NCBI GenBank assembly: GCA_001412365.1 | Contig: LKUE01000301.1 | Coordinates: 1 to 30,508, forward strand | DNA: 30,508 bases | Source of the DNA: Desulfuromonas sp. SDB | GTDB taxonomy: Bacteria; SDB-A | Reading direction: 5' to 3' | Made by a program: the position numbers and the translations under genes | In this document: one piece after another, positions 14,544 through 29,851 of the stretch | Layout of the letters: each line of letters begins with the position of its first letter | How positions within the stretch are numbered: position 1 is the first letter of the stretch | Notes under the pieces: generated by a model | Databases searched by the model: none | What the model was told of the DNA's origin: nothing | Seen by the model: the letters and a program-made list of their open reading frames with translations, nothing else

Positions 14544-15155
14544 TTAATCGGAAAAATACTTATTAATATATTTTTTTAATATTTCCTTTGCCTCCGGCTC
14601 GCACTTGCCGCAGCCGGTGCTGATCTTGGTCTTTTCCTGAAGCTGTTTAAAATTTCTAACTCCTTCTAATACTGCCTCTTCAATATCCTCTTGGTTAATC
14701 TGTTGACATTCACAGATTAGTTTGGATTTTAGATCAGTTTTAACTTTATCCGACATTCCATGTTTCATATAATAATCATCTATTGCCGCTCTGAGCGCTT
14801 TATCCCCCAAAACTGAACAATGAATTTTACGGTCAGGCAATCCCCCCAATTCTCTTAAAATATCTTTGGGGGTTAAACTATACGCTTTTTCCAAAGTCAT
14901 CCCCTTAACCATTTCTGAGAGAACCGAAGTGCTGGCAATAGCACTGGCACATCCATAAGTCTTCCATTTACAATCAGTTATAGTTAATTTTTCCGGATCA
15001 ACTTTAATGTACATCACCATCTGGTCTCCGCACATGACATTTCCCACCATCCCCCGGGCATGGTAATCGAATTCCTGATCATTTAAAAGAATATTGCGGG
15101 GATTAATAAAATGTTCCTTCACCCTATCTGAATACAGCCAATTTTCATTTTCCAT
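14544..15155 (-). CDS. nifU: NifU-type iron-sulfur scaffold (IscU domain plus BFD-like [2Fe-2S] domain)
   Basis: The 203-residue protein has an N-terminal IscU domain with the three cluster-assembly cysteines Cys42 ('VGNVMCGD'), Cys69 ('TYGCASAIASTS') and Cys113 ('KIHCSVLG'). It ends in a BFD/NifU-type [2Fe-2S] domain with Cys148, Cys150, Cys182 and Cys185 ('ICEC...GCGKC'). The C-terminal Nfu domain of Azotobacter NifU is absent, giving the shorter NifU form common in anaerobes. It receives sulfur from the cysteine desulfurase encoded immediately upstream and assembles clusters for transfer to target proteins. The ATG overlaps the 3' end of nifS by 11 bp and has an AAGGA site inside that gene, so translation is coupled. 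Target proteins very likely include the cluster-rich complex encoded divergently. Confidence 0.93.
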   Translation of the reverse strand: MENENWLYSDRVKEHFINPRNILLNDQEFDYHARGMVGNVMCGDQMVMYIKVDPEKLTITDCKWKTYGCASAIASTSVLSEMVKGMTLEKAYSLTPKDILRELGGLPDRKIHCSVLGDKALRAAIDDYYMKHGMSDKVKTDLKSKLICECQQINQEDIEEAVLEGVRNFKQLQEKTKISTGCGKCEPEAKEILKKYINKYFSD

Positions 15156-16344
15156 TGCATTTTCCTTTGTGGTAAATAGTGGACATTGATCTAACTTTTT
15201 TGATCACTTGTTTTAAACGGTCAATCACAAAAACAATATCTTGTTCAGTATTTTCCCGACCCAAACTAAATCTAATCGAGCTGTGAGCCCACAATTCATC
15301 CAAACCAGTAGCCAAAATTACATAGGAAGGCTCCAGGGAACCGGATGAGCAGGCAGAGCCAGTGGAAACTTCAATGCCTTCAAGGTCAAGGTAAAGCAGT
15401 ATTGACTCGCCTTCTGCCCCGCTAAATGACACATTTAAAGTGTTGTACAGGCAATCCTCAGGATGTCCGTTAAAATGCACATCTTCAATATTTTTCTCTA
15501 TTCCCTGCTTTAACAAGTTTCTGAGATTACTAATTCTATTAAAATCTAACTCCATTTCCTCGCTTCGTTTTTCAATAGCCTTGCCCAGTCCGACGATACC
15601 CAGAGTATTTTCAGTTCCTGCCCTGCGATTTCTCTCCTGATGCCCTCCTCTGATCAGGGGGCAGTAGTGAGCTTGACTGCTTACATACAGTGCTCCAATC
15701 CCCTTGGGTCCGTAAATCTTGTGACCGGAAAGAGTCAAAAAATCCACCCCTAATTTGCGTACATCTACCGGTATCTTTCCCACTGCCTGTACAGCATCAG
15801 TATGCATCAAAGCATTTTTATGATGAACCAGCTCAGAAATTCTTTGAATATCCTGGATAGTTCCGATTTCATTGTTAGCCATCATAACTGAAACCAACCC
15901 CACTTTTTCATCTAAATTGTCTTCTAAATAATTCAGATCAATTTTCCCATACCGATCAACCGGTAAATATATAACTTCTATGCCTTTATCCTTTAAACAC
16001 TTAGAGGTTTCCACTATACAGGGATGTTCAATGCTGGTGGTGATTATTTTTCGCTTGTTACAATGGTCAAAGCCGCATCTCAGTGAAGAACAGGCAATAG
16101 ATTGGAGGACAGTATTATTGCCTTCTGAACCACTGCCAACAAAAATTATCTCTTCCGCCCGGGCATTAATAAATGAGGCAATCTGCTGACGGGATTGTTC
16201 AATTAATGCCCTTGCCCTTCTGCCCAAGGTATGCAAACTGGACGGATTGCCGTATTCATTTATATTGTCTATCATAAATTCAGCTACTTCCGGATGAATG
16301 GGAGTAGTTGCATTGTTATCCAGATAAATAATTTTCTTATTCAA
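15145..16344 (-). CDS. nifS: Cysteine desulfurase NifS/IscS
   Basis: This 399-residue class-V PLP enzyme has 'YLDNNATTPIHPEV' at the N-terminus, the PLP-binding Lys209 in 'TLSGHKIYGPKGIG', 'RGGHQERNRRAGTEN' near 232-246 and the mobile-loop nucleophile Cys332 in 'STGSACSSG'. It removes sulfur from cysteine as a Cys-persulfide and passes it to the NifU scaffold encoded next. The start is a TTG, preceded by GGAGG four bases upstream; no better start fits the conserved N-terminus. A good sigma-70 promoter lies upstream (TTGAAG-N17-TATAAT on the minus strand). It is divergent from the sigma-54-driven flavin/iron-sulfur operon and overlaps nifU by 11 bp. Confidence 0.95.
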   Translation of the reverse strand: MNKKIIYLDNNATTPIHPEVAEFMIDNINEYGNPSSLHTLGRRARALIEQSRQQIASFINARAEEIIFVGSGSEGNNTVLQSIACSSLRCGFDHCNKRKIITTSIEHPCIVETSKCLKDKGIEVIYLPVDRYGKIDLNYLEDNLDEKVGLVSVMMANNEIGTIQDIQRISELVHHKNALMHTDAVQAVGKIPVDVRKLGVDFLTLSGHKIYGPKGIGALYVSSQAHYCPLIRGGHQERNRRAGTENTLGIVGLGKAIEKRSEEMELDFNRISNLRNLLKQGIEKNIEDVHFNGHPEDCLYNTLNVSFSGAEGESILLYLDLEGIEVSTGSACSSGSLEPSYVILATGLDELWAHSSIRFSLGRENTEQDIVFVIDRLKQVIKKVRSMSTIYHKGKCNGK

Positions 16345-16538: not shown

Positions 16539-16574
16539 TTTAACCTGGTGTTAAAATTATTAACACCGGTTAAA
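16539..16574. promoter_or_regulatory. Long dyad, candidate activator (UAS/enhancer) site
   Basis: TTTAACCTGGTGTTAA and TTAACACCGGTTAAA form 15-bp arms with a single bulged T and a 5-nt centre. Each arm is also itself a dyad: TTAAC-N5-GTTAA on the left and TTAAC-N4-GTTAA on the right, so this may be two adjacent protein sites. Its centre is about 128 bp upstream of the sigma-54 -24 box, the usual place for an NtrC-type enhancer site. No U-run follows, which argues against a terminator. Confidence 0.6.
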
Positions 16575-16683: not shown

Positions 16684-16700
16684 TGGCACAAAAATTGCTT
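16684..16700 (+). promoter_or_regulatory. Sigma-54 (RpoN) promoter of the NuoEF/GltD-fusion operon
   Basis: TTGGCAC followed by AAAAA and TTGCTT matches the sigma-54 consensus TGGCAC-N5-TTGC(A/T) essentially perfectly. The GG of the -24 element (16685-16686) and the GC of the -12 element (16697-16698) are spaced by the required 12 bp. Transcription should begin near 16710, followed by AAGGAGG and the ATG at 16733. Such promoters need an NtrC-type AAA+ activator, and the operon's last gene encodes one. Confidence 0.88.
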
Positions 16701-16732: not shown

Positions 16733-17710
16733 ATGAATAATAGAGTTTTATTGATTGATGATGAACAATCCTTCAGGAGGACTTGTTCAGTAGGATTAAT
16801 GCAGAATGGATTTGAAACTGTTCCCTGTGAAAACGGAATCAGCGCATTGAAAAAACTGGAGTTGTTTATGCAAAACAACCTCCCTCCAGTTTGCGCAGTA
16901 GTGGATATTAAACTTCCGGATATTGACGGAGTAAGATTAGTTAAAATTATTAAATTTAAATATCCTGACCTTCCCATAATCTTAATATCCGCATATGCTG
17001 ATTACCTACAGTCCGATGAGGTAAAAGAACTGGAAGTAAATGCAATACTGGAAAAACCATTTAATATTGATGAATTAACTGAAAAATTCAAAAATATCAC
17101 TGAAATACCAGCTTCTCCAGATGAAAAAACTGAAAAATCAGTTCACAGTGCCTACATAATGCTTAAATTGCAACATACTGCGGATGTCTATGACATTTAC
17201 CAAAAGCTTTATTACCATAAAAATGTTCTTTACTGTGATGCTACTAACGGTGATTACGACATAATTTTGCTGGTTCAAGATAAATCTGCAGACCAGTGTG
17301 TTAAATTTTTTAACAATGAAATTCAAACCATTCCTGAATTAGAACATGCAGAAATCTGTCCTGTACATAATTTAATTCTGGAAGAAAGTACGATTTCTAT
17401 ATTAAATCTTGCAGACAAGGCATTTACCGAAGATGAATATCTCTCTCCTAAAAAATTCGACAAGAATAAAGTATCATCATATTTATTTCTAAAAGTTGAG
17501 CCGGAAAAGATTGAAGATATTTATCCTTCTTTAAAACTTAACAAACATGTAATTTACTGTGATTATACCTCCGGTTACTACAATTTTGTGATTTATTTAG
17601 AAGGCACTCATTATCATAAAATTGATAAAATCATTGAACAAGAAATTTTAACTAATCCCGGAATTTTAAAGGCAGTTGAATTCCCCATCATCAATATGAT
17701 GGAAATGTAA
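16733..17710 (+). CDS. Response-regulator receiver fused to two Lrp/AsnC-type ligand-binding (RAM) domains
   Basis: The 325-residue protein starts after AAGGAGG. Residues 1-122 are a receiver domain with acidic pair Asp9-Asp10, phosphoacceptor Asp58 ('VVDIKLPDIDG'), switch Ser86 and Lys108 ('LEKPF'). Two homologous segments follow, residues 139-216 and 249-320. Each begins 'SAYIMLKL' or 'SSYLFLKV', contains an alpha helix, and has 'VLYCDATNGDYDIILLV' or 'VIYCDYTSGYYNFVIYL', the layout of the Lrp/AsnC C-terminal (RAM) domain. There is no helix-turn-helix, so it should act through protein or ligand binding rather than DNA. A possible cognate kinase is encoded later in the same operon. It is the first gene under the sigma-54 promoter; the next gene starts 2 bp after its stop. 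What it controls is unknown. Confidence 0.75.
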   Translation: MNNRVLLIDDEQSFRRTCSVGLMQNGFETVPCENGISALKKLELFMQNNLPPVCAVVDIKLPDIDGVRLVKIIKFKYPDLPIILISAYADYLQSDEVKELEVNAILEKPFNIDELTEKFKNITEIPASPDEKTEKSVHSAYIMLKLQHTADVYDIYQKLYYHKNVLYCDATNGDYDIILLVQDKSADQCVKFFNNEIQTIPELEHAEICPVHNLILEESTISILNLADKAFTEDEYLSPKKFDKNKVSSYLFLKVEPEKIEDIYPSLKLNKHVIYCDYTSGYYNFVIYLEGTHYHKIDKIIEQEILTNPGILKAVEFPIINMMEM

Positions 17711-17712
17711 TA

Positions 17713-18189
17713 GTGGAAATGCACATGAAGACTACACCCTCTAAGAAAAAGTTTAAAGTTGATCTAATTAATCTTAAATCTCAACAAGGATCTCTGATAA
17801 AACTGCTTCAATCAGCCCAGGAAACCTACGGTTATATTCCTGAACCGGCAATATACAATATCAGTGAGTTAGTGGGAATATCTCCGGCGGAAATTTACGG
17901 GGTGATTACTTTTTACTCTCAATTCAGACTAAAACCATTGGGCAAATATGTTATTAAAATTTGTGAAGGGACTGCCTGTCATGTCAATGGAGCCAGGGAA
18001 ATTCTCCGAGCCATAAAAAATGAGCTGGGAATTGGAATTGATGAAACTACTGATGATGGTTTATTCACCATGCTTTCAGTAGCCTGTTTAGGCTGCTGTT
18101 CTCTCTCCCCGGTAATAATGATTAATGACAAAACCTATGGCAAATTAACTCCTGAAAAGATCAGGTCAATATTAAGAGAATATAAATGA
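17713..18189 (+). CDS. NuoE/HydC-like [2Fe-2S] subunit
   Basis: The 158-residue protein is a thioredoxin-fold 24-kDa-type subunit. An N-terminal helical part carries 'QETYGYIPEPAIYNISELVGIS' (split by a short loop) and 'GVITFYSQF', both diagnostic of NuoE. The cluster ligands are Cys84 and Cys89 ('CEGTACHVNG') and Cys125 and Cys129 ('CLGCC'). It passes electrons between the NuoF-like subunit and other clusters. The GTG at this position follows the previous stop by 2 bp; in-frame ATGs two and four codons later (17719, 17725) are also possible, with no strong ribosome site for any of them. NuoE, NuoF and NuoG-type genes in this order are typical of soluble hydrogenase, formate dehydrogenase and Bfu-type bifurcating complexes. 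Confidence 0.9.
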   Translation: MEMHMKTTPSKKKFKVDLINLKSQQGSLIKLLQSAQETYGYIPEPAIYNISELVGISPAEIYGVITFYSQFRLKPLGKYVIKICEGTACHVNGAREILRAIKNELGIGIDETTDDGLFTMLSVACLGCCSLSPVIMINDKTYGKLTPEKIRSILREYK

Positions 18190-18216
18190 TAAGCAGATAA
18201 GTTAATTGAAGTTTTC

Positions 18217-18255
18217 ATGATAAACAATACTGCCAATTCCGGGGAGAATGTATGA
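18217..18255 (+). CDS. Possible 12-codon minicistron before the NuoF-like gene
   Basis: ATG at 18217 opens a 12-residue frame whose TGA overlaps the NuoF-like ATG as ATGA. The 62-bp gap it lies in is the only sizeable gap in an otherwise tightly packed operon. The upstream ribosome site is weak. It might couple or tune translation, or be chance. Confidence 0.2.
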   Translation: MINNTANSGENV

Positions 18256-20015
18256 AAAAAGTAAAAGTAGGCATGGCAACCTGTGGAATTTCAGCAGGAG
18301 CTGAACAGATATATAAAATCCTTCAGGATTCAATCCAAAAAAACGATATTGAGGTGGAATTAGTTGAAACAGGATGTATGGGAAGGTGCTTTCAGGAAGT
18401 TTTAGTTGAAGTTGAAGATAAAAACCAGAATTACCTTTATGGAAATGTAACTCCGGAGAAGATAAATCAAATTATCCATCAGCATTTAATTGATAATAAA
18501 CCGGTAAACCAATATCTAGCGCTAGATTTAAACAACCAAAGTGAAGATCAGTTTTTTCAAAAACAAAAACGAATTGTATTAAGAAACTGTGGAATTATTG
18601 ATCCCACCTCAATAGAGGATTATATATCCAGGGGGGGGTACCAGGCACTGAAAAAAGTTCTAAAAGAGTTAACTCCGGAACAGGTTATCCAAGAAATAGA
18701 CAGCTCAGGACTCAGAGGAAGAGGAGGAGGAGGTTTTCCCACCGGAATGAAATGGAGTTTTGCCAGAAAAGCGGAGGGAATTAAAAAATACATCATCTGC
18801 AATGCAGATGAAGGTGATCCGGGGGCATTTATGGACAGAAGTGTATTGGAAGGCGACCCCCATTCAGTGATTGAAGGAATGATCATTGCTGGTTATGCAA
18901 TTGGTGCCTGCCTGGGTTATATCTATGTTAGAGCTGAATATCCCCAGGCTATCCAAAAACTCAAAACAGCAATTGAGCAATGTCACCGGCAAAACTATTT
19001 AGGGGAAAATATATTAAACAGTAATTTCAGCTTCGATCTGATTATAAAGGAAGGGGCAGGAGCATTTGTGTGTGGAGAGGAAACTGCATTAATTTCCTCC
19101 ATAGAGGGTAAACGGGGGGTTCCTCGAATTAGACCCCCTTTTCCCGCAGTCAAGGGATTATGGGGTTGTCCTACCAGCATAAACAATGTGGAAACTTTTG
19201 CCAATATTTCCTGGATAATTTTAAACCGCGCAGATAAATTTTCTCAGCTGGGAACTGCTAAAAGCAAGGGAACTAAAGTTTTTGCCCTGGCCGGTAAAAT
19301 TAAACGAAGCGGATTAGTAGAAGTACCCATGGGAATTACAATTAATGAAATCGTTTATGAGGTGGGAGGAGGAATTATCAACAACCGCCAATTCAAAGCA
19401 GTTCAGATGGGAGGACCTTCCGGAGGGTGCATTCCTGCCAGTATGGGTGACTTAAAAATTGATTACGATGAGATAACCAGCACCGGAGCGATAATGGGTT
19501 CAGGGGGGATGATTGTTCTGGATGACTCTAACTGCATGGTGGATGTTGCCAAATTCTTTTTATCTTTCACTCAAAACGAATCATGCGGAAAATGCACTTT
19601 TTGCCGTATAGGAACCAAAAGAATGCTGGAAATACTGGAAAAAATCTGCCTGGGGCAAGGAGAATTAGAACATCTGGATATACTGGAAGATCTTAGCTAT
19701 CAAATCAAAAAGACCAGTTTATGCGGATTAGGTCAAACTGCCCCCAATCCTGTGCTCACCACCCTTAAATACTTCCGGGACGAATATCTGGCTCATATTC
19801 AGGACCATCGCTGTCCTGCAGGAGTTTGCTCAGCCCTGCTAACTTATCAAGTCAATCCTGATCTGTGTAAAGGCTGTACACTGTGTGTAAAAAAATGTCC
19901 GGTCAATGCAATCCAGGGAGAAAAAGGAGAAACTGCCTATATTGATCAGAATAAATGTATAAAATGCGGGCAGTGTTTTGATGTGTGTAAATTCAAAGCA
20001 ATAATTAAAAATTAG
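18252..20015 (+). CDS. NuoF/HydB-like NADH-binding flavoprotein subunit
   Basis: The 587-residue protein combines an N-terminal thioredoxin-like [2Fe-2S] domain (about 1-90; Cys11, Cys42, Cys46, a three-Cys 'CGISAGA' form as in HndB-type proteins), the NuoF core and a C-terminal ferredoxin. The core has FMN/NADH motifs 'GRGGGGFPTGMKW' (156-168) and 'CNADEGDPGAFMDR', an SLBB region, and the N3-type [4Fe-4S] ligands Cys445, Cys448, Cys451 and Cys491. Residues 539-579 carry two CxxCxxCxxxC [4Fe-4S] motifs. This is the layout of HydB and FdhB-type subunits of flavin-based electron-bifurcating complexes: NADH is handled at FMN, and ferredoxin-type clusters receive low-potential electrons. GGGGAG precedes the ATG. 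It lies 8 bp before the GltD-fusion gene. Confidence 0.93.
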   Translation: MKKVKVGMATCGISAGAEQIYKILQDSIQKNDIEVELVETGCMGRCFQEVLVEVEDKNQNYLYGNVTPEKINQIIHQHLIDNKPVNQYLALDLNNQSEDQFFQKQKRIVLRNCGIIDPTSIEDYISRGGYQALKKVLKELTPEQVIQEIDSSGLRGRGGGGFPTGMKWSFARKAEGIKKYIICNADEGDPGAFMDRSVLEGDPHSVIEGMIIAGYAIGACLGYIYVRAEYPQAIQKLKTAIEQCHRQNYLGENILNSNFSFDLIIKEGAGAFVCGEETALISSIEGKRGVPRIRPPFPAVKGLWGCPTSINNVETFANISWIILNRADKFSQLGTAKSKGTKVFALAGKIKRSGLVEVPMGITINEIVYEVGGGIINNRQFKAVQMGGPSGGCIPASMGDLKIDYDEITSTGAIMGSGGMIVLDDSNCMVDVAKFFLSFTQNESCGKCTFCRIGTKRMLEILEKICLGQGELEHLDILEDLSYQIKKTSLCGLGQTAPNPVLTTLKYFRDEYLAHIQDHRCPAGVCSALLTYQVNPDLCKGCTLCVKKCPVNAIQGEKGETAYIDQNKCIKCGQCFDVCKFKAIIKN

Positions 20016-20023
20016 GGGATTTT

Positions 20024-23000
20024 ATGAGTTTAATTGAGATAACTGTGAACGGTGAAAAAATTAAAACACAATCAGATCAAACTATACTGGAAGTTATATC
20101 TCAACACCAATTAGATAATATCCCCACTCTTTGTCATGATCAAAGAACTACTGCTTACGGGTCATGTTTTCTATGTGTGGTGGAAGTTAAGGGGATCAAC
20201 CGACTGGTCCCTTCCTGCTGCACCTTGATCAAAGAAGGGATGGAAATAATCACCAAATCCGAACAGATAATCAAGGCAAGGAAGACTGCTCTGGAATTAT
20301 TATTATCCAATCATTATGCTGATTGTATCGGACCCTGTAAAAACAATTGCCCCGCTGGAGTTGATGCTCAAGGTTATATTTCACTTATATCTCAAAACAA
20401 ATATCATCAGGCGGTAAAATTAATAAAGGAAAACAATCCCCTTCCTTTATCCATAGGCAGAATTTGTGTGAGGGACTGCGAATTAGCCTGCCGCAGAAAT
20501 TTAGTTGATCAGCCGGTGGGCATAAATTACCTAAAGCGGTTCAGTGCAGATATTGACATTGATAATCCCTGGACTCCTTCCTCTTCTCCCTCCCTAAATA
20601 AAAAAATTGCCATCATCGGGGGAGGACCTTCCGGATTAACCTGCGCTTATTATTTAAATTTATACGGCTACCAGGTCACTATTTTTGAAAAACTGCCTGA
20701 ATTAGGAGGGATGCTGCGTTACGGCATACCTTCCTACCGTCTTCCCAAAGATGTTTTAGATCAGGAAATAAGCTGGATAGTGAACCAGGGAATTGAAGTT
20801 GAACTGAACTGTGAATTTGGAGTTGACCTCAGTTTGCCCCAATTAACTGCAAAAGGTCATGAGGCGGTATTCCTGGCGCCCGGAGCCCAGAATCCAAGAT
20901 TTATGAAAATTCCCGGAGAACAATCCCAAGGGGTTTTATTTGGAGTGGAGTGGTTGAGATCTCTGCATACCCGGGGTATTCCTTCCCTGCAGGGAAAAAT
21001 AGTGGTAGTGGGAGGTGGAAACACTGCTATTGATACAGCCAGAACTGCGCTGCGCTGCGGAGCAGATTCAGTTGTAATTATTTACCGGCGTTCCCGTAAA
21101 GAAATGCCGGCTAATGATGATGAGATAAAGGCGGCTTATGAAGAAGGTATAGAATTCAAGTTTTTGACTAATCCGGTTAAAATCAATACTGACCATCAAG
21201 GTAAAATATCTTCGGTCACCTGTATGAAAATGAAACTGGTGGAAACAGATGCCCACAGCAGGCCTAAACCGGTTCCCCTGGAAAATTCTGAATTTTCAAT
21301 AAACTGCCAGGGATTAGTCAGCGCCATCGGGCAAGTTGTTGATACTCAGAGTTTTAACTCCATAGAAAATTTAAAGATTAATTTCAGCAACACTATCCTG
21401 GTTGATCAAACTACCTTGGAAACTTCTGTGCCCGGACTTTTTGCAGGAGGAGATGCAGTGACCGGTCCCTGGACGGCAATAGGAGCAATTGCCCAGGGTA
21501 AAAGGGCAGCTATATCCATTGATCAATATTTAACTGATCGTACTCATTTAAAACTACAAAAACCAGTGGTCAGCTTAAAGCAGAACTTCCAGGAAGTTAC
21601 CTCCGGGGAATACTCCCAATATCCGAGAATAGCCAGGGAAAAAATGCCTGAACTTAATATTGACCAAAGAATAGATAATTTTGATGAAGTTGAACTGGGA
21701 TTAACTGCAAAGCAAGCTAAGGGTGAAGTCCTCCGGTGTTTACAATGCGGATGCAGTCAATATCATGACTGCCAGCTAATTGCTTATGCCCGGGATTATG
21801 AAATTGATATTACCCGGTTTAGCGGCGATTTTAGAAGATATCCGGTAGATAAACGTCATCCTTTTATCATTTTAGATCCCAATAAATGCATTAACTGCGG
21901 AAAATGTGTCCGCACCTGCTCGGAGATACTTAAAGTTTCAGCTATCGAATTCATCCACCGTGGTTTCAGAGCCATAGTCAAACCAGCAATGGAAAAAGCA
22001 TTGTTAGATACAAACTGTGTCAGCTGCGGGAACTGCATAGATGTCTGCCCCACCGGAGCTATTACTGAAAATTTACCATTAAATATTGCAGGAACCCTGC
22101 CCCGTCAGAACAAATCAACCTTATGTAACTACTGCTCTCTGGGCTGTCAATTGAATTATCAGGTTGTAGATGACCAAACCTATTACGTTACCAATAGAAC
22201 TGATGAGGTCATCCAAGGGTTTAATCAAGGTTATCTCTGCGTCAAGGGTAGATTTGGCTATCGTTTTAATATTGAAGAACCGCGGATTAATAAACCGGTA
22301 ATCAAAAGAGGTCATCAGCATATTGAAACTGAGTACTGGGAAGCATTTGATCATATTGCAGATAAATTAAACAAAATTATCCAGCAGCACGGAAAATCAT
22401 CAATTGCTCTATTTGGTTCCCCCAAGTTGTCCAACGAATCATTATACCTGATTGGGAAATTGGGCAGGGCAGTTATAGGCACTAATAATATTGCCTGCTT
22501 ATCCCATCTTGTTCATAATCCCCCGGTTAGCTGCTTAAATGAGGGAATGGGTATTACTACTTCCACTGCCTGTTTAGAAGATCTTGCTCACGCTGATGTC
22601 ATTGTGGCTTTAAATGCCGGTTTAAATGAAGAGAACCTGATCATGGAGCTTCAAATTAAACAGGCACAGAAAAGAGGGACTAAACTGGTTTTAGTTAGTT
22701 GTTCAGAGGAAAAGCTTACCAAATTTGCTGACCTGTGGATAAACTCAGTGAAAGGCACCAATACTTTATTAATGGATCTGATTATGGGTGAAATTATCAG
22801 TAAGCAGATCTATCCTGTTAACCATGTAGGTGAATTCACCCGGGGATTTGAAAATTTAAAGAAATTTACCACCCAACTGGACTTAGAGAAAGTTTCATCC
22901 ATCACCGGAGTGTACAAAGATAAAATAAACCAGATGATAAATTGGCTTTCCCCCAGAAATAATAAAGTTGTATTTATTTATAACCTGGAAAATTCAGCCC

Positions 23001-23794
23001 AGCGTTCAGCTAATGATGTTAAATCAATCTTCAATTATCTGGCATTGACCAACCGTCTTCAGGGTAAAGGAAATGGTCTGCTTTTATTTAAAAAATATTC
23101 AAACAGCTCTGGAATTATTGACATGGGCATCCATCCTCAATACCTTCCGGGTATGGTGAAGAAATCAGACCATCCCTGGATAGACAAAATTTCCCAACTA
23201 TGGGGATGTGACCTGGAAAATTTAACCGAACCCGTTGATATTTCAGAGAAATTAATTCAGGGAAAAATTAAGGCTGCCCTTATATTTCAGGAAGATCCTT
23301 TGCGGTACAATGAAAACATTCACTTATTCAACAACCTGGAATTTTTAGTGGCAGCAGATTATGTCCCCACCTTTACCACTCGGGAAGCTGATGTGGTGCT
23401 GCCTTTGAAATATCATCTTGAACAATCAGGGACTTACACCAGTTGTGATAACCGGATTCAGAAAGTAAATCCCATCATCAACCATGCTAAATTAATGGAT
23501 AATTACCAGATAATATGTGAATTGGGGAAGAGATTTAATCCTGCCTTCACCTATAATTCCAGTGATCAGGTTTTCCAGGAAATAAAGAAAGCAAATCGTT
23601 TTTATACCAAAGCCCAGTTTAATAAATCCTGGTCAAAACATATTTTCAATAATCATCAATATCTGACTCCGGATAAAAAATTACATTTTATGATTTACGA
23701 TATTGATTTGACCACTTATCCTTATTATCAGAATGAATTGCTTTCAGATGAAATATTTTATAATGAAAAAATAAAATCGAAACTAAGTATCTAA
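20024..23794 (+). CDS. NuoG-type ferredoxin - GltD - ferredoxin - molybdopterin-oxidoreductase-like fusion subunit
   Basis: This 1256-residue protein is a chain of electron-transfer modules. Residues 1-75 are a [2Fe-2S] ferredoxin (Cys37, Cys48, Cys51 and Cys65 or 66). From 97 the NuoG-like 'HYADCIGPCKNNC' runs into a GltD-type N-terminal cluster domain (Cys148, Cys152, Cys156). GltD FAD and NAD(P)H Rossmann motifs follow: 'IIGGGPSGLTCAYYL' (197-211), 'VVVGGGNTAIDTART' (327-341), 'YRRSRKEMPA' and 'AGGDAVTGPWTAIGAI'. Next come 'CLQCGCSQYHDC' (572-583) and two [4Fe-4S] ferredoxin motifs (622-632, 665-675). The rest resembles the formate dehydrogenase/NuoG molybdopterin fold, with its cluster Cys701, Cys704, Cys708 and Cys739. 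The position of the catalytic Cys/Sec of formate dehydrogenases appears to be Val830 ('LVHNPP'), and the usual C-terminal dinucleotide-binding domain is missing. It probably couples NAD(P)H to the NuoEF partner; the reaction is unproven. Confidence 0.85.
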   Translation: MSLIEITVNGEKIKTQSDQTILEVISQHQLDNIPTLCHDQRTTAYGSCFLCVVEVKGINRLVPSCCTLIKEGMEIITKSEQIIKARKTALELLLSNHYADCIGPCKNNCPAGVDAQGYISLISQNKYHQAVKLIKENNPLPLSIGRICVRDCELACRRNLVDQPVGINYLKRFSADIDIDNPWTPSSSPSLNKKIAIIGGGPSGLTCAYYLNLYGYQVTIFEKLPELGGMLRYGIPSYRLPKDVLDQEISWIVNQGIEVELNCEFGVDLSLPQLTAKGHEAVFLAPGAQNPRFMKIPGEQSQGVLFGVEWLRSLHTRGIPSLQGKIVVVGGGNTAIDTARTALRCGADSVVIIYRRSRKEMPANDDEIKAAYEEGIEFKFLTNPVKINTDHQGKISSVTCMKMKLVETDAHSRPKPVPLENSEFSINCQGLVSAIGQVVDTQSFNSIENLKINFSNTILVDQTTLETSVPGLFAGGDAVTGPWTAIGAIAQGKRAAISIDQYLTDRTHLKLQKPVVSLKQNFQEVTSGEYSQYPRIAREKMPELNIDQRIDNFDEVELGLTAKQAKGEVLRCLQCGCSQYHDCQLIAYARDYEIDITRFSGDFRRYPVDKRHPFIILDPNKCINCGKCVRTCSEILKVSAIEFIHRGFRAIVKPAMEKALLDTNCVSCGNCIDVCPTGAITENLPLNIAGTLPRQNKSTLCNYCSLGCQLNYQVVDDQTYYVTNRTDEVIQGFNQGYLCVKGRFGYRFNIEEPRINKPVIKRGHQHIETEYWEAFDHIADKLNKIIQQHGKSSIALFGSPKLSNESLYLIGKLGRAVIGTNNIACLSHLVHNPPVSCLNEGMGITTSTACLEDLAHADVIVALNAGLNEENLIMELQIKQAQKRGTKLVLVSCSEEKLTKFADLWINSVKGTNTLLMDLIMGEIISKQIYPVNHVGEFTRGFENLKKFTTQLDLEKVSSITGVYKDKINQMINWLSPRNNKVVFIYNLENSAQRSANDVKSIFNYLALTNRLQGKGNGLLLFKKYSNSSGIIDMGIHPQYLPGMVKKSDHPWIDKISQLWGCDLENLTEPVDISEKLIQGKIKAALIFQEDPLRYNENIHLFNNLEFLVAADYVPTFTTREADVVLPLKYHLEQSGTYTSCDNRIQKVNPIINHAKLMDNYQIICELGKRFNPAFTYNSSDQVFQEIKKANRFYTKAQFNKSWSKHIFNNHQYLTPDKKLHFMIYDIDLTTYPYYQNELLSDEIFYNEKIKSKLSI

Positions 23795-23795
23795 T

Positions 23796-26129
23796 ATGGA
23801 AAGAGGATTTAAGTGGCTTGCTGAAATTCTGGATGATGTAGTTATCATCAACAGCAAATACAGCATTAAATTTTTAGGAAGAAATATTCATAAATACTTG
23901 TTTAATGAAAAAAAAATAAACTTCACCAATGTCCTCAAAAATTTTTCGGAATCTGATGCCACAGAACTTAAAACTGCCTTAAAAAATTCATTAGACCGTA
24001 AACAAGCTCAACAAGTTAAACTGAAAAAAAAAAGAAAACCAATTTACATCATTGCCAACCGGCAGCAGCAGCCCTATTTTCTTGGCTCCATTAATAAGAA
24101 AATTTCCCAGGCGGAAAGAATTCACCACGATTTAGATGAAAGAGTTAAAGAGCTGGAATGTTTATACCGTATTAGCTACGAATTGGACACCAACGATCTG
24201 GATCAAGCTCTGGAAAATTCAGTTAATCATCTGGTTCAAGCTTTTCAATATCCTGAAATTACTTCAGCTCATATCAATATAAATCAGAAAATTTTCACCA
24301 ACCAATCTAACTTTAATAATCCGGGATTAGTCTGTCTTGCCCGGGATATCACCGTCAATGATGTTAAAATTGGCGAAGTAAAAATTTGTTATCACCGGAA
24401 AGAGAAATTTATAACCGAAGAAAAAAAATTGTTAAATGAAATTACCTCGCTGATTTCCAAAACCATTGAAAAAAGAGACCTGAGAATAGAATTAGGACAG
24501 TATTTAGGTAAATTAGAGGAACTAGTTAAAATCAAAACAAATCAACTTGAAGAATCCAGGAAAAGATACCAGGATTTATTCCATAATGCCCCTGACAGCA
24601 TTACTATTTCTGATACCAAGGGACAAATCATTAAAGCAAATGAGGTTTTCAAAAAATTAGTTAAATATCCTGATGGCGATGATTTGAATTATGTAAAGCA
24701 TAAACTGATAAAAAAGGCTACTAAGACCTGGCATGAGATTGTACATGAGTTGCATCAAAAAAAATATTTAAAAGGATTTGAATTAACGGTGGTGGATAAA
24801 AACGGCACTTTATATCCGGTTATCGGTTCCTTCCGCTTGTTTAATTCACCCCAAGGTGAACAAATTGAAGCTATTTTCAAGGATATTTCTACAAAAAAAG
24901 AACAGGAAAATAATTTAATTGCTCAGAAGAATAAACTGGAAAAAATTGTAAAGGAAAGAACCAAGGACCTGGAACATCAAAAACACCTTCTGTTGATGAA
25001 AAATAAAGCATTGATTAGACTGACCGGGGAATGTTACCGGAGCAGGAAAAACCTGGAAACTTTATTCAGCGCAATTACCGATCCCATTATTGTGGTGGAC
25101 CATGAACTTAACATTGTTAAATCCAATAAAGAATATATTAACAGCGGGGAAAAATGTTATAAGAAAATATTCAATATTGATACCATCTGTGAAAACTGTC
25201 CGGTGATTACTTCTTTTCAAACTAAGACCTCTGTTACCCTGGAGAGGAAAATTGATAAAAATTATTACATGCTGCAGGCTTATCCAATTATCAATAAACA
25301 GGGAGAAGTGGAAAATGTGTTGGAAGTATGTAATGATTTGACCAGGGAAAAACAGATGGAGATGCAGCTAATTCAAACTGATAAACTGGCCTCATTGGGA
25401 AAAATAGTCTCAGGAGTAGCTCACGAGATTAACAATCCTAATACATTCATCAAAGGGAATATCAATATCCTCAAAGAATCATTGAAGGATATGCTGCCAA
25501 TTCTAGATCAGATTTACTGTTCTAACCAAGATTTAAAAATTGCCCGTTTGGACTACCCTGTTTTTAAGGAAAATATTTTAGTTTTAATTGAGGATATGCA
25601 GGAGGGAACTACCCGCATAAAGAAAATAGTGGATGACCTTAGAAATTTCGCCAGAAGAGATGAAGGATTGTTGACTGAATCTGTAAATGTCAACCAGGTT
25701 ATTGAAAACAGCATTAGATTGGTTGAAAAACAAATTAGAAGAAATTCCGAACTCAAAATCAAACTAAACCCCATCCTTCCAAAAATAAAAGGTAATACTC
25801 AAAGATTAGAGCAGGTTATGGTCAATCTGCTGATCAATGCTGGACAAGCAATAGAAGACAAAGCCGGAGAAGTATCTGTGGAATCCCGCTGGGACCAAAA
25901 CAACGGAAAAATTATAATCTATGTCAAAGATAACGGTTCAGGGATGGACCAGGAAACTATCCAGCACATATTTGACCCCTTTTTCACCACCAAGAAAAAC
26001 CGGAGCGGCACCGGTTTAGGACTTTCCATCGTCTACGGAATAATTGAAGAACATTTAGGAAAAATTGAAGTATTCAGCATGCCAGGGCAAGGATCCACAT
26101 TTAAAATTTCCCTTCCCACCATAAGTTAA
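23796..26129 (+). CDS. Soluble GAF/PAS sensor histidine kinase
   Basis: The 777-residue protein has no membrane segment. It contains a diverged N-terminal PAS-like region (about 5-60), a GAF-like domain (about 118-230), a coiled coil, a PAS domain (about 256-372), a second coiled coil and a second PAS (about 418-520). This second PAS has a cysteine cluster, Cys454, Cys465 and Cys468 ('ICENCP'), suited to redox or metal sensing. The kinase core has the HisKA motif 'VAHEINNPN' with phosphoacceptor His543, then a HATPase domain with N-box 'QVMVNLLINAGQAI', 'DNGSGM' and 'GTGLGLSIVYG'. The ATG begins 1 bp after the stop of the GltD-fusion gene. The sigma-54 activator encoded next is its likely partner; the operon's first-gene receiver could be a second one. 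Redox sensing is inferred. Confidence 0.87.
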   Translation: MERGFKWLAEILDDVVIINSKYSIKFLGRNIHKYLFNEKKINFTNVLKNFSESDATELKTALKNSLDRKQAQQVKLKKKRKPIYIIANRQQQPYFLGSINKKISQAERIHHDLDERVKELECLYRISYELDTNDLDQALENSVNHLVQAFQYPEITSAHININQKIFTNQSNFNNPGLVCLARDITVNDVKIGEVKICYHRKEKFITEEKKLLNEITSLISKTIEKRDLRIELGQYLGKLEELVKIKTNQLEESRKRYQDLFHNAPDSITISDTKGQIIKANEVFKKLVKYPDGDDLNYVKHKLIKKATKTWHEIVHELHQKKYLKGFELTVVDKNGTLYPVIGSFRLFNSPQGEQIEAIFKDISTKKEQENNLIAQKNKLEKIVKERTKDLEHQKHLLLMKNKALIRLTGECYRSRKNLETLFSAITDPIIVVDHELNIVKSNKEYINSGEKCYKKIFNIDTICENCPVITSFQTKTSVTLERKIDKNYYMLQAYPIINKQGEVENVLEVCNDLTREKQMEMQLIQTDKLASLGKIVSGVAHEINNPNTFIKGNINILKESLKDMLPILDQIYCSNQDLKIARLDYPVFKENILVLIEDMQEGTTRIKKIVDDLRNFARRDEGLLTESVNVNQVIENSIRLVEKQIRRNSELKIKLNPILPKIKGNTQRLEQVMVNLLINAGQAIEDKAGEVSVESRWDQNNGKIIIYVKDNGSGMDQETIQHIFDPFFTTKKNRSGTGLGLSIVYGIIEEHLGKIEVFSMPGQGSTFKISLPTIS

Positions 26130-26131
26130 CC

Positions 26132-27505
26132 ATGAATAAAGTAATTATCATAGATGATGATCAAGCGATATTAAACTATCTTAAGATTATGCTTCTGCAA
26201 ACCGGAAAGTTCGAAGTCACCTTATTGGGTGATAGCACCAAAGCACTGGATATTCTGAAAAACAAATCCTTTGATCTTCTGCTTCTGGATATGGATATGC
26301 CCAAAGTCAGCGGATTAGATATATTGAAATTTATAAATGAGCAGAATATCCCTATAACTACCATAGTACTTACCGGAGTGGAAGATGTTGATTTGGCAAT
26401 ATCCGCAATGAAATTAGGCACCTATGACTATCTTTTAAAGCCGGTGGAAGAAAAAAAATTAATTTCCATCATGGAAAAAATAGTTAAACTGGATTTGCCG
26501 GAAAAAGAAGTTTGTGCCAGCGAACTTAGTAAAAAACTGAAATATCCTCAATGCTTTGCTCATATAATTACTGATGATGAAAAAATGTTGAAAACATTTC
26601 AACAAGTGGAGCAAATTGCCCCATCGGATACAGGAGTTTTAATCTGGGGTGAAAGCGGTACTGGTAAAGAATTGGTAGCCAAAGCAATCCACCAGATAAG
26701 CCCCCGGAATAATAAAAAATTCGTAGCAGTAAATGCAGGACTATTTGCCAATGAATTATTCTCCTCGCAATTTTTCGGATACACCAAAGGAGCTTTTACC
26801 GGCGCGGATACAGATAAGCATGGTTTTATTGAAGAAGCTCATCAGGGCACTTTATTTTTAGATGAAATCGGCGAACTTTCCCTGCCCATACAGGTTAAAC
26901 TACTTCGTTTTCTTCAGGAAGGAGAATTTTACCGGTTGGGTTCCACTGAGTACAGAACTGCAGATGTGAGGATTATTGCCGCAACTAATAAAAATCTTTT
27001 TGACGAAATAAATAAAGGCACCTTTAGAAAAGATCTCTTCTTCAGGCTAAATATTAACTCAGTTTTCCTTCCTCCGTTAAGGGACAGGAAATCTGATTTA
27101 CCTAAATTGGCTTATTATTTTCTGGAAAAATTCAGCAAATTACACCAAAAAAATATAAATAAAATATCCAAGCCGGTTTTAAATCTGCTGGATTATTACA
27201 ATTATCCGGGAAATGTCAGGGAACTTATGAATATCATCAACAGTGCAGTAATTGTAGAAAATAAATCAGAAATACGAAAGGATTCCCTCCCTGTTTATTT
27301 TCTGGAAGCTACTCAATATAAAATTTCAAATCAAATTATCCCCTCATCCTTAACTGAACTAGAAAAAAATCACATTAAAAAAACACTGGATTTCACTAAA
27401 TGGAACAGAAGTAAGGCAGCTGAAATCCTGAAAATATCCAGGGTAACTTTAATATCGAAAATAAAAAAATATAATCTCTCTCCCCTACCCCCGTCAGAAA
27501 AGTAA
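26132..27505 (+). CDS. NtrC-family sigma-54-dependent response regulator
   Basis: The 457-residue protein has the standard three domains. The receiver (1-120) has Asp8-Asp9, phosphoacceptor Asp53 and Lys103. The AAA+ domain (about 140-385) has Walker A 'GESGTGKE' (173-180), the sigma-54 contact motif GAFTGA (220-225), Walker B 'LFLDEIGE' (241-248) and 'YPGNVRELMN'. A Fis-type helix-turn-helix (about 408-448) contains 'NRSKAAEILKISRVTLISKIKKY'-like sequence in two parts. It should be phosphorylated by the adjacent kinase and activate RpoN promoters. The start follows the kinase stop by 2 bp. Because its own operon begins with a sigma-54 promoter with an upstream dyad, positive autoregulation is the simplest model. 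Its 3' end overlaps the convergent secreted-protein gene by 12 bp. Confidence 0.95.
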   Translation: MNKVIIIDDDQAILNYLKIMLLQTGKFEVTLLGDSTKALDILKNKSFDLLLLDMDMPKVSGLDILKFINEQNIPITTIVLTGVEDVDLAISAMKLGTYDYLLKPVEEKKLISIMEKIVKLDLPEKEVCASELSKKLKYPQCFAHIITDDEKMLKTFQQVEQIAPSDTGVLIWGESGTGKELVAKAIHQISPRNNKKFVAVNAGLFANELFSSQFFGYTKGAFTGADTDKHGFIEEAHQGTLFLDEIGELSLPIQVKLLRFLQEGEFYRLGSTEYRTADVRIIAATNKNLFDEINKGTFRKDLFFRLNINSVFLPPLRDRKSDLPKLAYYFLEKFSKLHQKNINKISKPVLNLLDYYNYPGNVRELMNIINSAVIVENKSEIRKDSLPVYFLEATQYKISNQIIPSSLTELEKNHIKKTLDFTKWNRSKAAEILKISRVTLISKIKKYNLSPLPPSEK

Positions 27506-29851
27506 ATTAAATTTTGCACTGATGCAACGGTTGCCGTTATTTAAGCTGAGAAAATACACCCCAGGGGTAAAGGATTTTAATGTAATATTCACCTGCTGGC
27601 TGCCCGGAGTGAGGTGATATTTCTGATGAATTATCTTCCTTCCGGATAAATCAAAAATATCCAGCTGAACCTGGGAGGAAACAATAAGGCTTAAGTTTAC
27701 GGTTAATACACCATCTGCTATTTGCCACGAATAATCTTCACTTCCATTGCTTAGGGGGGGAGTTTGGGGAGTACTGCTGTACTGAAAAGACCATTTAAGG
27801 GCATCAAAAGCAATTTTTCTACCCTGAATACCAGTGGCGTCTCCAAGATAGACATAATCTCCGCTGCTGTCAAATTGATATCCTCCCAACAAAACCCACT
27901 GATTGGAATATTGACTCTGATCTAATATAACTGTATCCATCCCCAGGGTATGATGAACTTTATATATTGCCTGCTGAGCATCGGCATTATCTCCGGGGAT
28001 CCAAGCATATAAGTGGTAATAACCATTGCAGGGCAACTTAGGAGTCCAGGTGGCATAGCAAGTATCAATCCCCTGGGCTGCGGTGGTATAAGTCCACCAG
28101 TAATGTCCTGCATATCCGTTAACCCCGTCTCTCCAGTAACCCATACGGGCAGGGGGATCATTGTATAAAGTAAATCCGTCATATTGTAAATCGTCCACAA
28201 TGCTATCCGCAGGAGCAGGCATATCTCCTCTGCTGGTAACTGCCCAGTACACCTGATTTAAATTTTGATAACCGTTGTTGTAACCAGGCCAGTCATACCG
28301 GGAATACTTTCCGTCATAACTGGGATATCCAGCAGTGTTTTTGTTGCCATAGGGATCGTTAAATATTAAGGTATGCCAGGTGGAGACCTGACCTAATGCT
28401 AACACTAAATGTCCTGAACCGGTCAACCCCACACATAAAGAAAAAGGGAAACCTGAATCAATTTCACTAACCACCTCATTAAAAGAAGGATAGTCAATGC
28501 GGTCAGCATTTAGGTGGTGCTGGGAAATGTAATCAGCCATCCTTGAATAAGGTGAATAACTCCCATACCACATGAAACCATAACCTCCCTGGGCAGGATT
28601 ATTACTAGGATCTAAGGCTTCCCAGTTGTATTCAGTGGAAAAATAATGATATCTTTCACAGACATATCTGCCCATACTGCTGGGGTGACCATAAGGGCTT
28701 GTACACCAGCAGTCCCAGGGGGGTAGTTTCTTATAATAGTCAATTGCCATTATCGCAGTGGTGGGGGCGCAAGCCCAGTGACCGTTAAACCAATCGGGCA
28801 CATCGTAAACCTGGTGATAATAAGGAACATCAAAAGAATCACGGGGATAGCAGTCATTTTCCGGAAGTAAATGTTCAAGGGGAAATATTGAATAATGGTC
28901 ATCCCATTGTTGCTCAATTACTAAACAATTATTCACAATTTCCGCTTTAATTAAACAAGGTTCATTCATCTTTGCATATATTATCTGATTATCTGTCAGG
29001 AAACGGGGAGAAATCTCATAATCATCTAAACTGTGGGTGAGTTTAATTTTATCAAAACCTCTATAATCCGAGATGAACAAATCGGAATTGATTAATTTTA
29101 AATTTTCTGATTGCTGAACTGAATAAATTAAATTTTCACCCGAAGGATCCCAGCAGTACTGACTTCCCTGGCCCAAACTGTAGTTAACCTCTTCATTTAA
29201 ATCATAAACCCAAATCTGTCCGCCCAAACTTGAAAAAGCCAATCTTTGCCGGTTAGGTGACCACCGGGGATTGCAAAATCCTCCCGGTAGATTCTGAGTT
29301 ACCCATACTTTCTCATCGCTGCTGAGATTGAGAATCCAGATTTGATCATTCTGATCATTATAGGCAATGAAATTCCCTCGGGGAGAGACCGCAAAATCAT
29401 TTACATAATAACCTAAAAAGTAAAAATATGTGGAGTCAGCACAAATTCTATAAAGGGTGTCCTCTATACTAAAAAACACCTGATGGGGATGGGCAAATCT
29501 AACTTGTCCGCATTGTTGCACCGGTGAATGAAGCTGATAAATACAATGATCATCCAGGTCATACAGGGCAGGAAATTGAAGGCCACTGCGGTCAATATGC
29601 TTAAATCCAATTAAATTACCGGAATAATCATAATCCACATATCTTCCACATCCCGGAGTATTCACTAATATCTGCACATTGTCATTTAGCGAATACAGAG
29701 AAGAGTAATAATTGTCCGTGAATACAATGCCCCCAGTGGTTAGCACTGGATCGGTAAAATAATATTGAGCTTCTCCGCTTCTATCAGTATTTACATTAAC
29801 TGCCGATATTAACATAGAATTCAGCAGTAACTTCAATATAAACCAAAACAT
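27494..29851 (-). CDS. Secreted beta-propeller / C39-like / golvesin-like protein with T9SS type-A sorting tail
   Basis: The 785-residue protein has a signal peptide (about 1-18). Residues 25-330 form repeated TolB/WD40-like propeller blades ('GNFIAYNDQNDQIWILNL', 'RWSPNRQRLAFSS', 'CWDPSGENLIYSV'). Residues 340-530 resemble a C39-like papain-fold domain, with Cys361 in 'WACAPTTAIMAIDYY', His481 in 'GSGHLVLALG' and Asn498-Asp499 in 'FNDPYG'. Residues 575-695 match the golvesin C-terminal/CBD-like domain ('YGYYHLYAWIPG'-type strand, 'WVLLGGYQF', 'GRKIAFDALKW'). The last 80 residues are a type-A sorting domain with 'LDIFDLSGRKI' and 'GVYFLSL'. It is probably a surface-attached or secreted hydrolase or binding protein exported by type IX secretion. 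There is no ribosome site, and a possible leaderless promoter lies upstream. Confidence 0.82.
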   Translation of the reverse strand: MFWFILKLLLNSMLISAVNVNTDRSGEAQYYFTDPVLTTGGIVFTDNYYSSLYSLNDNVQILVNTPGCGRYVDYDYSGNLIGFKHIDRSGLQFPALYDLDDHCIYQLHSPVQQCGQVRFAHPHQVFFSIEDTLYRICADSTYFYFLGYYVNDFAVSPRGNFIAYNDQNDQIWILNLSSDEKVWVTQNLPGGFCNPRWSPNRQRLAFSSLGGQIWVYDLNEEVNYSLGQGSQYCWDPSGENLIYSVQQSENLKLINSDLFISDYRGFDKIKLTHSLDDYEISPRFLTDNQIIYAKMNEPCLIKAEIVNNCLVIEQQWDDHYSIFPLEHLLPENDCYPRDSFDVPYYHQVYDVPDWFNGHWACAPTTAIMAIDYYKKLPPWDCWCTSPYGHPSSMGRYVCERYHYFSTEYNWEALDPSNNPAQGGYGFMWYGSYSPYSRMADYISQHHLNADRIDYPSFNEVVSEIDSGFPFSLCVGLTGSGHLVLALGQVSTWHTLIFNDPYGNKNTAGYPSYDGKYSRYDWPGYNNGYQNLNQVYWAVTSRGDMPAPADSIVDDLQYDGFTLYNDPPARMGYWRDGVNGYAGHYWWTYTTAAQGIDTCYATWTPKLPCNGYYHLYAWIPGDNADAQQAIYKVHHTLGMDTVILDQSQYSNQWVLLGGYQFDSSGDYVYLGDATGIQGRKIAFDALKWSFQYSSTPQTPPLSNGSEDYSWQIADGVLTVNLSLIVSSQVQLDIFDLSGRKIIHQKYHLTPGSQQVNITLKSFTPGVYFLSLNNGNRCISAKFNLLF

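Follow-up and report, generated by a model that had tools for sequence, protein, structure and literature searches.

The locus studied here raises the question of which enzyme is encoded by three adjacent genes of Desulfuromonas sp. SDB, and of what the genes around them contribute. The genes lie in a window of 30,508 nt (contig LKUE01000301.1), and the original prediction read their products, a NuoE-like protein, a NuoF-like protein, and a fusion of ferredoxin, GltD-type, and MopB modules, as a candidate for an undescribed bifurcating enzyme. The reading favored here, with a probability of about 75%, is that of an Stn transhydrogenase under signal control, with a regulatory RAM partner and sigma-54 autoregulation. 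Family membership, cofactor ligands, operon order, promoter, and co-inheritance were tested on the sequence; from these we infer the activity of this copy, the contact between the RAM protein and StnA, the phosphotransfer routes, the signal, and the functions of the promoter and of an upstream palindrome.

Identity of the Three Subunits

The three open reading frames were confirmed; they lie on one strand and nearly touch. The first (17713..18189, plus strand) has a GTG start and encodes a NuoE/HydC-like protein of 158 aa with one [2Fe-2S] cluster (Pfam 2Fe-2S_thioredx). The NuoF/HydB-like product of the second (18252..20015, plus strand; 587 aa) has an FMN/NAD site, a Zn linker, and a C-terminal 2x[4Fe-4S] ferredoxin docking domain, and its Pfam matches comprise an N-terminal thioredoxin-like domain, Complex1_51K, NADH_4Fe-4S, and two Fer4 domains. 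The third (20024..23794, plus strand; 1256 aa) joins a ferredoxin, a GltD-type FAD/NADP(H) module, and a NuoG/MopB chain, with Pfam domains in the order Fer2_4, Fer4_20, Pyr_redox_2, Fer4_Nqo3, Molybdop_Fe4S4, and Molybdopterin. As had been proposed, the GltD-type part is thus placed between the [2Fe-2S] ferredoxin and the NuoG/MopB rest of the chain; this GltD/NfnB-like FAD-NADP(H) module (residues 103-508, 20330..21547, plus strand; Fer4_20 and Pyr_redox_2) matches the structures 4ylf and 5jca. The reported absence of an H-cluster was also borne out, Pfam giving no [FeFe]-hydrogenase catalytic domain and no Fe_hyd_lg_C match.

All three proteins match solved complexes of the Stn/Nfn-Bfu type. 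The largest protein scores 797 bits against 9bov_A and 701 bits against 8oh5_C, the NuoF-like protein 852 bits against 9bov_B and 824 bits against 8oh5_B (residues 3-584), and the matches of the smallest are 9n5u_C, 9bov_C, and 8oh5_A. We take 8oh5/8oh9 to be StnABC of Sporomusa ovata, given the chain set, the chain lengths (1172 aa for StnC), and the K170/C114/R239 numbering. The purification of Stn from S. ovata dates from 2020 (PMC7483475); in 2022 the enzyme was placed in the Bfu family under the name Nfn-Bfu (PMC9304861), and its cryo-EM structure followed in 2023 (PMC10482914; PDB 8oh5/8oh9). An undescribed enzyme is ruled out by the structure-database matches and this literature, and, judged by sequence, the genes at 17713-23794 are StnA, StnB, and StnC of the Stn (Sporomusa-type Nfn, Nfn-Bfu) family. 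Nor is a catalytic partner missing, as had been supposed, because the GltD module of StnC itself supplies the third catalytic/substrate site.

The cofactor ligands are highly conserved. The cysteines of seven clusters, a lysine ligand, and an arginine are invariant in all aligned StnC sequences (86/86); the unusual lysine ligand of cluster C7, K170 in S. ovata, corresponds to K171 of the window protein and is kept in 86/86 sequences, as is R239, whereas C114 of S. ovata is replaced with Ala at a position reported as variable (PMC10482914). The ligands of the StnA cluster (C84, C89, C125, and C129) are present in 66/66 relatives, the cluster cysteines of StnB are invariant in the alignment of its relatives, and 21 aligned residues of the StnB FMN/NAD site and the loop Asp D186 are identical to those of S. 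ovata. Homology to S. ovata Stn (PMC10482914) raises the number of iron-sulfur clusters from the original estimate of about ten to 12. Overall, the sequence of the window StnC remains far from identical to that of characterized Stn.

In S. ovata, NADPH is oxidized at the FAD of StnC, the StnC clusters carry the electrons to the FMN of StnB, and StnAB bifurcates them to NAD+ and ferredoxin, while the FdhF-like domain of StnC is inactive and required for assembly (PMC10482914). The predicted activity of the window StnABC is NAD+-dependent reduction of ferredoxin with NADPH. NADPH would reduce the FAD in the GltD module, the StnC clusters would pass electrons to the StnB FMN, and the StnAB module would split them between NAD+ and ferredoxin; in the reverse direction, NADH and reduced ferredoxin would yield NADPH. 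The MopB part would serve structure only, and a D2 tetramer built by StnC is expected of an Stn complex. What is known biochemically of the characterized Stn family is consistent with the earlier guess of an NADH/NADPH/ferredoxin transhydrogenase built on a HydBC-like core.

The FdhF-like MopB domain (StnC residues 699-1201, 22118..23626, plus strand; Pfam, YjgC alignment, and the alignment column of 86 homologs) bears on a different reading, in which the complex would be an undescribed bifurcating enzyme with an unknown third substrate, e.g., a formate dehydrogenase acting via this domain. Its likeness to formate dehydrogenases is strong, with 318 bits against TIGR01591 and a gapless alignment around the active site to the formate dehydrogenase-like YjgC, but the catalytic Cys/Sec is replaced with Val830 (nt 22511-22513), none of the 86 StnC homologs has Cys or Sec at the catalytic column, and StnC has no Pfam match to the C-terminal molybdopterin dinucleotide-binding domain (Molydop_binding). 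Val830 and the absent cofactor-binding domain rule out StnC as a formate dehydrogenase, and the domain is a non-catalytic, structural remnant without a metal active site. Furthermore, the Stn family is biochemically a transhydrogenase (PMC7483475, PMC10482914, PMC9304861), the known characterized homologs being neither formate dehydrogenases nor hydrogenases, and no extra catalytic gene recurs near the block, NfnA being the only recurrent neighbor (6 loci). The unknown-substrate reading, which these observations already largely refute, is therefore very improbable. In short, the transhydrogenase function of the original prediction stands, whereas its claims of an undescribed enzyme and of no catalytic partner do not.

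The Six-Gene Operon and Its Promoter

StnA, StnB, and StnC are the middle of a six-gene operon located behind a near-perfect sigma-54 promoter, with all genes on one strand in the order RR-RAM, StnA, StnB, StnC, histidine kinase, and sigma-54 response regulator, and with intergenic gaps of 1-62 bp. The RR-RAM gene ends 2 bp before StnA, and the kinase gene starts 1 bp after StnC. The gene coordinates of the original prediction were correct, but the flanking operon members at 16733-17710 and 23796-27505 had been missed.

RR-RAM (16733..17710, plus strand) consists of a receiver and two RAM (Lrp/AsnC ligand-binding) domains (Pfam Response_reg and AsnC_trans_reg), with no DNA-binding domain detected by Pfam. 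All 27 relatives keep the receiver residues D9, D10, D58, and K108, and the AlphaFold model (pLDDT 84) contains the receiver and two RAM-type folds. The kinase (23796..26129, plus strand; Pfam HisKA/HATPase_c/PAS) is a soluble PAS-GAF-PAS-PAS histidine kinase with no transmembrane segment; only the domain order was used from its AlphaFold model, the pTM of which is low (0.30). Its C122 is conserved in 21/22 relatives, and C454, C465, and C468 in 22/26. The last gene (26132..27505, plus strand) encodes an NtrC-type sigma-54 response regulator with receiver, AAA+, and Fis HTH domains (Response_reg, Sigma54_activat, HTH_8), in which the GAFTGA loop, the receiver Asp, and the Fis HTH are all present. 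A redox-sensing role of the window locus is possible. At one locus of the window clade (L028, 9889-11070), a remnant of this signaling layer is found: the kinase is deleted and the sigma-54 regulator is left with a truncated receiver.

Two other regions of the window are outside this set. The operon adjoins a divergent pair (14544-16344, minus strand) of a class-V aminotransferase (cysteine desulfurase-like) and a NifU-like Fe-S scaffold, which lies outside the conserved block and plausibly provides Fe-S supply. A cell envelope of the Bacteroidota/FCB-like kind is suggested by the product of 27494-29851 (minus strand), which combines a C39-like peptidase domain with a Golvesin C-terminal domain and a sorting domain for type IX secretion.

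The sigma-54 (-24/-12) promoter TGGCACAAAAATTGCT (16684..16699, plus strand) is located 49 bp upstream of the RR-RAM ATG and scores 22.5 of a maximal 23.5, being the only window site with a score of 20 or more. The pattern TGGCAYN5TTGCW with at most one mismatch has one match in the window versus 2.26 expected by chance, a count not above chance; the exact pattern has 16 matches in the genome versus 0 for the reversed-pattern control, and rpoN is present in this genome. Such promoters were also observed at comparable loci of related operons. Within the 110 bp before the first gene of each locus, a score of at least 21 was found for 8/30 signaling-type loci (window included) versus 0/24 others. 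The regulator clade without GAFTGA (Krumholzibacteriota, Eiseniibacteriota, and kin) is also without the sigma-54 promoter. Since the presence of the promoter covaries with both the signaling type and the GAFTGA loop, the comparison supports a regulator that acts on its own operon, i.e., predicted sigma-54 autoregulation. Eight loci (L061, L064, L066, L070, L073, L074, L081, and L083) combine an NtrC-type regulator lacking GAFTGA with an operon lacking the sigma-54 promoter; the activator of this clade probably works with another sigma factor. Among the genes behind other exact sigma-54 promoters (L101, L105, L111, and others) are those for a prepilin-like protein and for regulators of the receiver or GAF type.

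A perfect palindrome revealed by the repeat search, GGTGTTAA-AATTA-TTAACACC (16547..16567), is located approximately 120 bp upstream of the promoter as a candidate enhancer (UAS). Its core GTGTTAA-N5-TTAACAC has no other mismatch-free occurrence in the 3.14-Mb genome, and the palindrome could be the site of the sigma-54 activator. It is not repeated upstream of related loci and was rejected as an enhancer motif common to related operons.

Conservation of the Block and the Probable RAM Partner

The contig scan yielded 80 loci, most of them from MAGs, that are the most window-like of a larger set, and the frequency of the signaling version among all Stn is therefore overstated in this sample. 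Within the limits set by contig ends, the six-gene order is shared by loci of at least 10 phyla. MAGs containing the block belong to Bacteroidota, Ignavibacteriota, Calditrichota, Acidobacteriota, Aminicenantota, Myxococcota or "Deltaproteobacteria," and further to Krumholzibacteriota, Eiseniibacteriota, Elusimicrobiota, Chrysiogenota, and Pseudomonadota. For 43 of the 80 loci, the contig extends far enough on both sides; the full set of three regulators was found at 19 of them, a partial set at 4, and none, as judged by similarity to the regulators of the window, at 20.

The last figure, i.e., the existence of many Stn operons without regulatory genes, would suit a view of these genes as chance neighbors of an ordinary Stn operon. 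This view is contradicted by the same gene order and strand in approximately 40 loci from at least 10 phyla, and by the distribution of the signaling states, which are clustered on the StnC tree (7 changes versus 21.9 after shuffling), the window falling within a clade of 27 rows (SH-aLRT 100) in which nearly all loci are of the signaling type. Pairwise distances point in the same direction: their correlation with StnC is 0.91 for RR-RAM and 0.87 for the kinase, close to the 0.94-0.96 for true subunits (StnA-StnC, 0.94); that of the sigma-54 regulator is lower (0.69). A reverse search with RR-RAM only, which avoids the bias of the StnC-based locus search, detected it in 5/296 and 12/297 genomes of two phylum samples; all 17 genes (17/17) are directly upstream of StnA-StnB, and 11 of these copies come from genomes absent from the StnC-based set. 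Chance neighborhood, already refuted by synteny, can be given hardly any credence.

The RAM part extends beyond the signaling loci. A RAM-only protein precedes StnA in 10 kinase-less operons among the same best 80 loci. In the clade of Zixiibacteriota, Ignavibacteriota, and Bacteroidota that has neither kinase nor regulator, a receiver-less tandem-RAM protein of ~164 aa is found, in most loci ~10 bp upstream of StnA. Two loci within the signaling clades (L034 and L080) are likewise without kinase and regulator, with the RAM part kept and the receiver gone. At one locus (L069, 994-2049, from a Bacteriovoracaceae MAG), RAM-RAM and StnA form a single open frame of 351 aa, a fusion known from this one MAG, which hints that the RAM protein contacts StnA. 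Read in the simplest way, the gene order and this fusion assign the RAM pair to StnABC, with StnA as its probable point of contact, and the receiver, the kinase, and the regulator would be gained and lost together as a signaling layer. The most likely role of RR-RAM is that of a regulatory subunit or partner, in contact with the complex through its RAM part and probably at StnA.

For the favored signal-controlled enzyme, these elements suggest the following sequence of events. The soluble PAS/GAF kinase would phosphorylate the RR-RAM receiver and/or the sigma-54 regulator. RR-RAM would adjust StnABC through its RAM part, and the regulator would activate transcription of all six genes at the sigma-54 promoter, closing a positive autoregulatory loop.

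Enzyme, Sensor, and Known Systems

The genome of the window contains a second, unlinked, canonical StnABC (contig C386) and NfnAB (contig C206); the window itself lacks the NfnA partner. In three species of the same family, only one StnC is present, and it groups with the canonical copy. The NfnAB contig also carries a Hyd-type operon (L012, 65-11049) with NuoE, DRTGG and PHP proteins, and small HATPases, followed by a 418-aa [FeFe] hydrogenase-like protein and NuoF; its 773-aa NuoG-like subunit ends in MopB and a dinucleotide-binding domain instead of an H-cluster and is directly followed by NfnA and NfnB. This is another Bfu-like complex. At six other loci (L030, L035, L036, L039, L073, and L083), NfnA/NfnB lie a few kb upstream of a signaling-type Stn operon.

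NfnA is present in 25/28 signaling-type genomes versus 5/21 others (2/12 RAM-only genomes and 3/9 with neither; Fisher 4e-6). After phylogenetic correction, only 3-4 independent contrasts are left, because the labels change few times on the tree, and their median p of 0.25 comes from too few contrasts for power. In acetogens, Stn and Nfn have been reported to exclude each other almost completely (PMC7483475). Should the present pattern hold, Stn would take the place of Nfn where it is unlinked and would be an additional, conditional enzyme where it is linked to signaling. A spare Stn in every signaling-type genome was considered and proved false, a second long StnC match being found in 3/29 only.

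The chief rival of the signal-controlled enzyme is a sensory function, in which StnABC would monitor the NADPH/NADH/ferredoxin poise and signal via RR-RAM and the kinase to the sigma-54 regulator, as in HoxBC. The parts are those of HoxBC-HoxJ-HoxA, i.e., a cytoplasmic redox enzyme, a soluble PAS kinase, and an NtrC-type regulator (PMC6978683). The tight linkage and co-inheritance, the conserved kinase cysteines, and the second, unlinked StnABC of the window genome fit a sensor as well, as does the usual presence of NfnA, since the metabolic job could then be done without Stn. On the other hand, all catalytic ligands are kept, and the alignment of 86 StnC contains no diagnostic residues separating signaling-linked from unlinked Stn, by which a degenerate sensor copy was rejected. 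Most signaling-type genomes have this StnC as their only full-length one, and through its promoter the whole operon is its own target, which plain regulation of an enzyme explains equally well. Full ligand retention argues for an active enzyme, as does the fact that a second full-length StnC is usually lacking; we therefore favor the signal-controlled enzyme and regard the sensor as unlikely, whereas the tight linkage leaves open a combined role as enzyme and sensor. The boldest reading, itself rather unlikely, holds that RR-RAM is a phosphorylatable fourth subunit, and that the circuit of StnABC, RR-RAM, kinase, and regulator turns redox poise into transcription and/or phosphorylation gates bifurcation.

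In acetogens, Stn has been known as a substitute for Nfn. The present loci suggest that it is wired into signaling in many anaerobes, and that many uncultured anaerobic phyla keep it beside NfnA/NfnB and control it by a kinase of its own, a sigma-54 switch, and a RAM partner protein. We know of no described regulatory subunit of a Bfu-type bifurcating enzyme; the RAM protein, if it is a subunit, would be one. If the enzyme informs the kinase, the cell would possess a direct gauge of its NADPH/NADH/ferredoxin balance.

Stn joined with a two-component system was not found in the literature searched, with most subscription journals and preprints outside its coverage. Within that literature, the enzyme family is known, whereas the operon type, the tandem-RAM partner, and the predicted sigma-54 autoregulation were not found and appear to be new. 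S. ovata Stn shares with the window the three subunits, the domain order of StnC, the cluster ligands, K170 and R239, the StnB ferredoxin domain, and the inactive FdhF-like MopB domain. The differences are in StnC, with 1172 aa in S. ovata versus 1256 aa in the window, divergence in the MopB half, and C114 versus Ala, and in the operon, to which the window adds RR-RAM, the kinase, the sigma-54 regulator, and the promoter, none of them mentioned for Stn (PMC7483475, PMC10482914). Nfn-Bfu of Thermococcus sibiricus (Bfu clade 53) has the same BfuBC core with an NADP(H)-binding BfuA and the reaction type predicted for the window, NADPH-dependent ferredoxin reduction coupled to NAD+, whereas its BfuA is ~200 residues shorter, and kinases or sensors are not discussed for it (PMC9304861). 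NfnAB catalyzes the same net reaction, and the GltD module of StnC is NfnB-like; however, its bifurcation site is another one, and its partner subunit is the DHODB-like NfnA, which stands beside NfnB. The HydBC core of HydABC [FeFe]-hydrogenases is homologous to StnAB, but the H-cluster domain is absent from Stn, in which the third site is for NADP(H). Finally, the regulatory hydrogenase HoxBC, which signals through HoxJ and HoxA, provides the same combination of a redox enzyme, a histidine kinase, and a DNA-binding response regulator (PMC6978683); its enzyme is unrelated, it has no RR-RAM, and its sensing has been described, whereas a sensing role of the window locus would be a prediction from the gene arrangement and the soluble PAS kinase.
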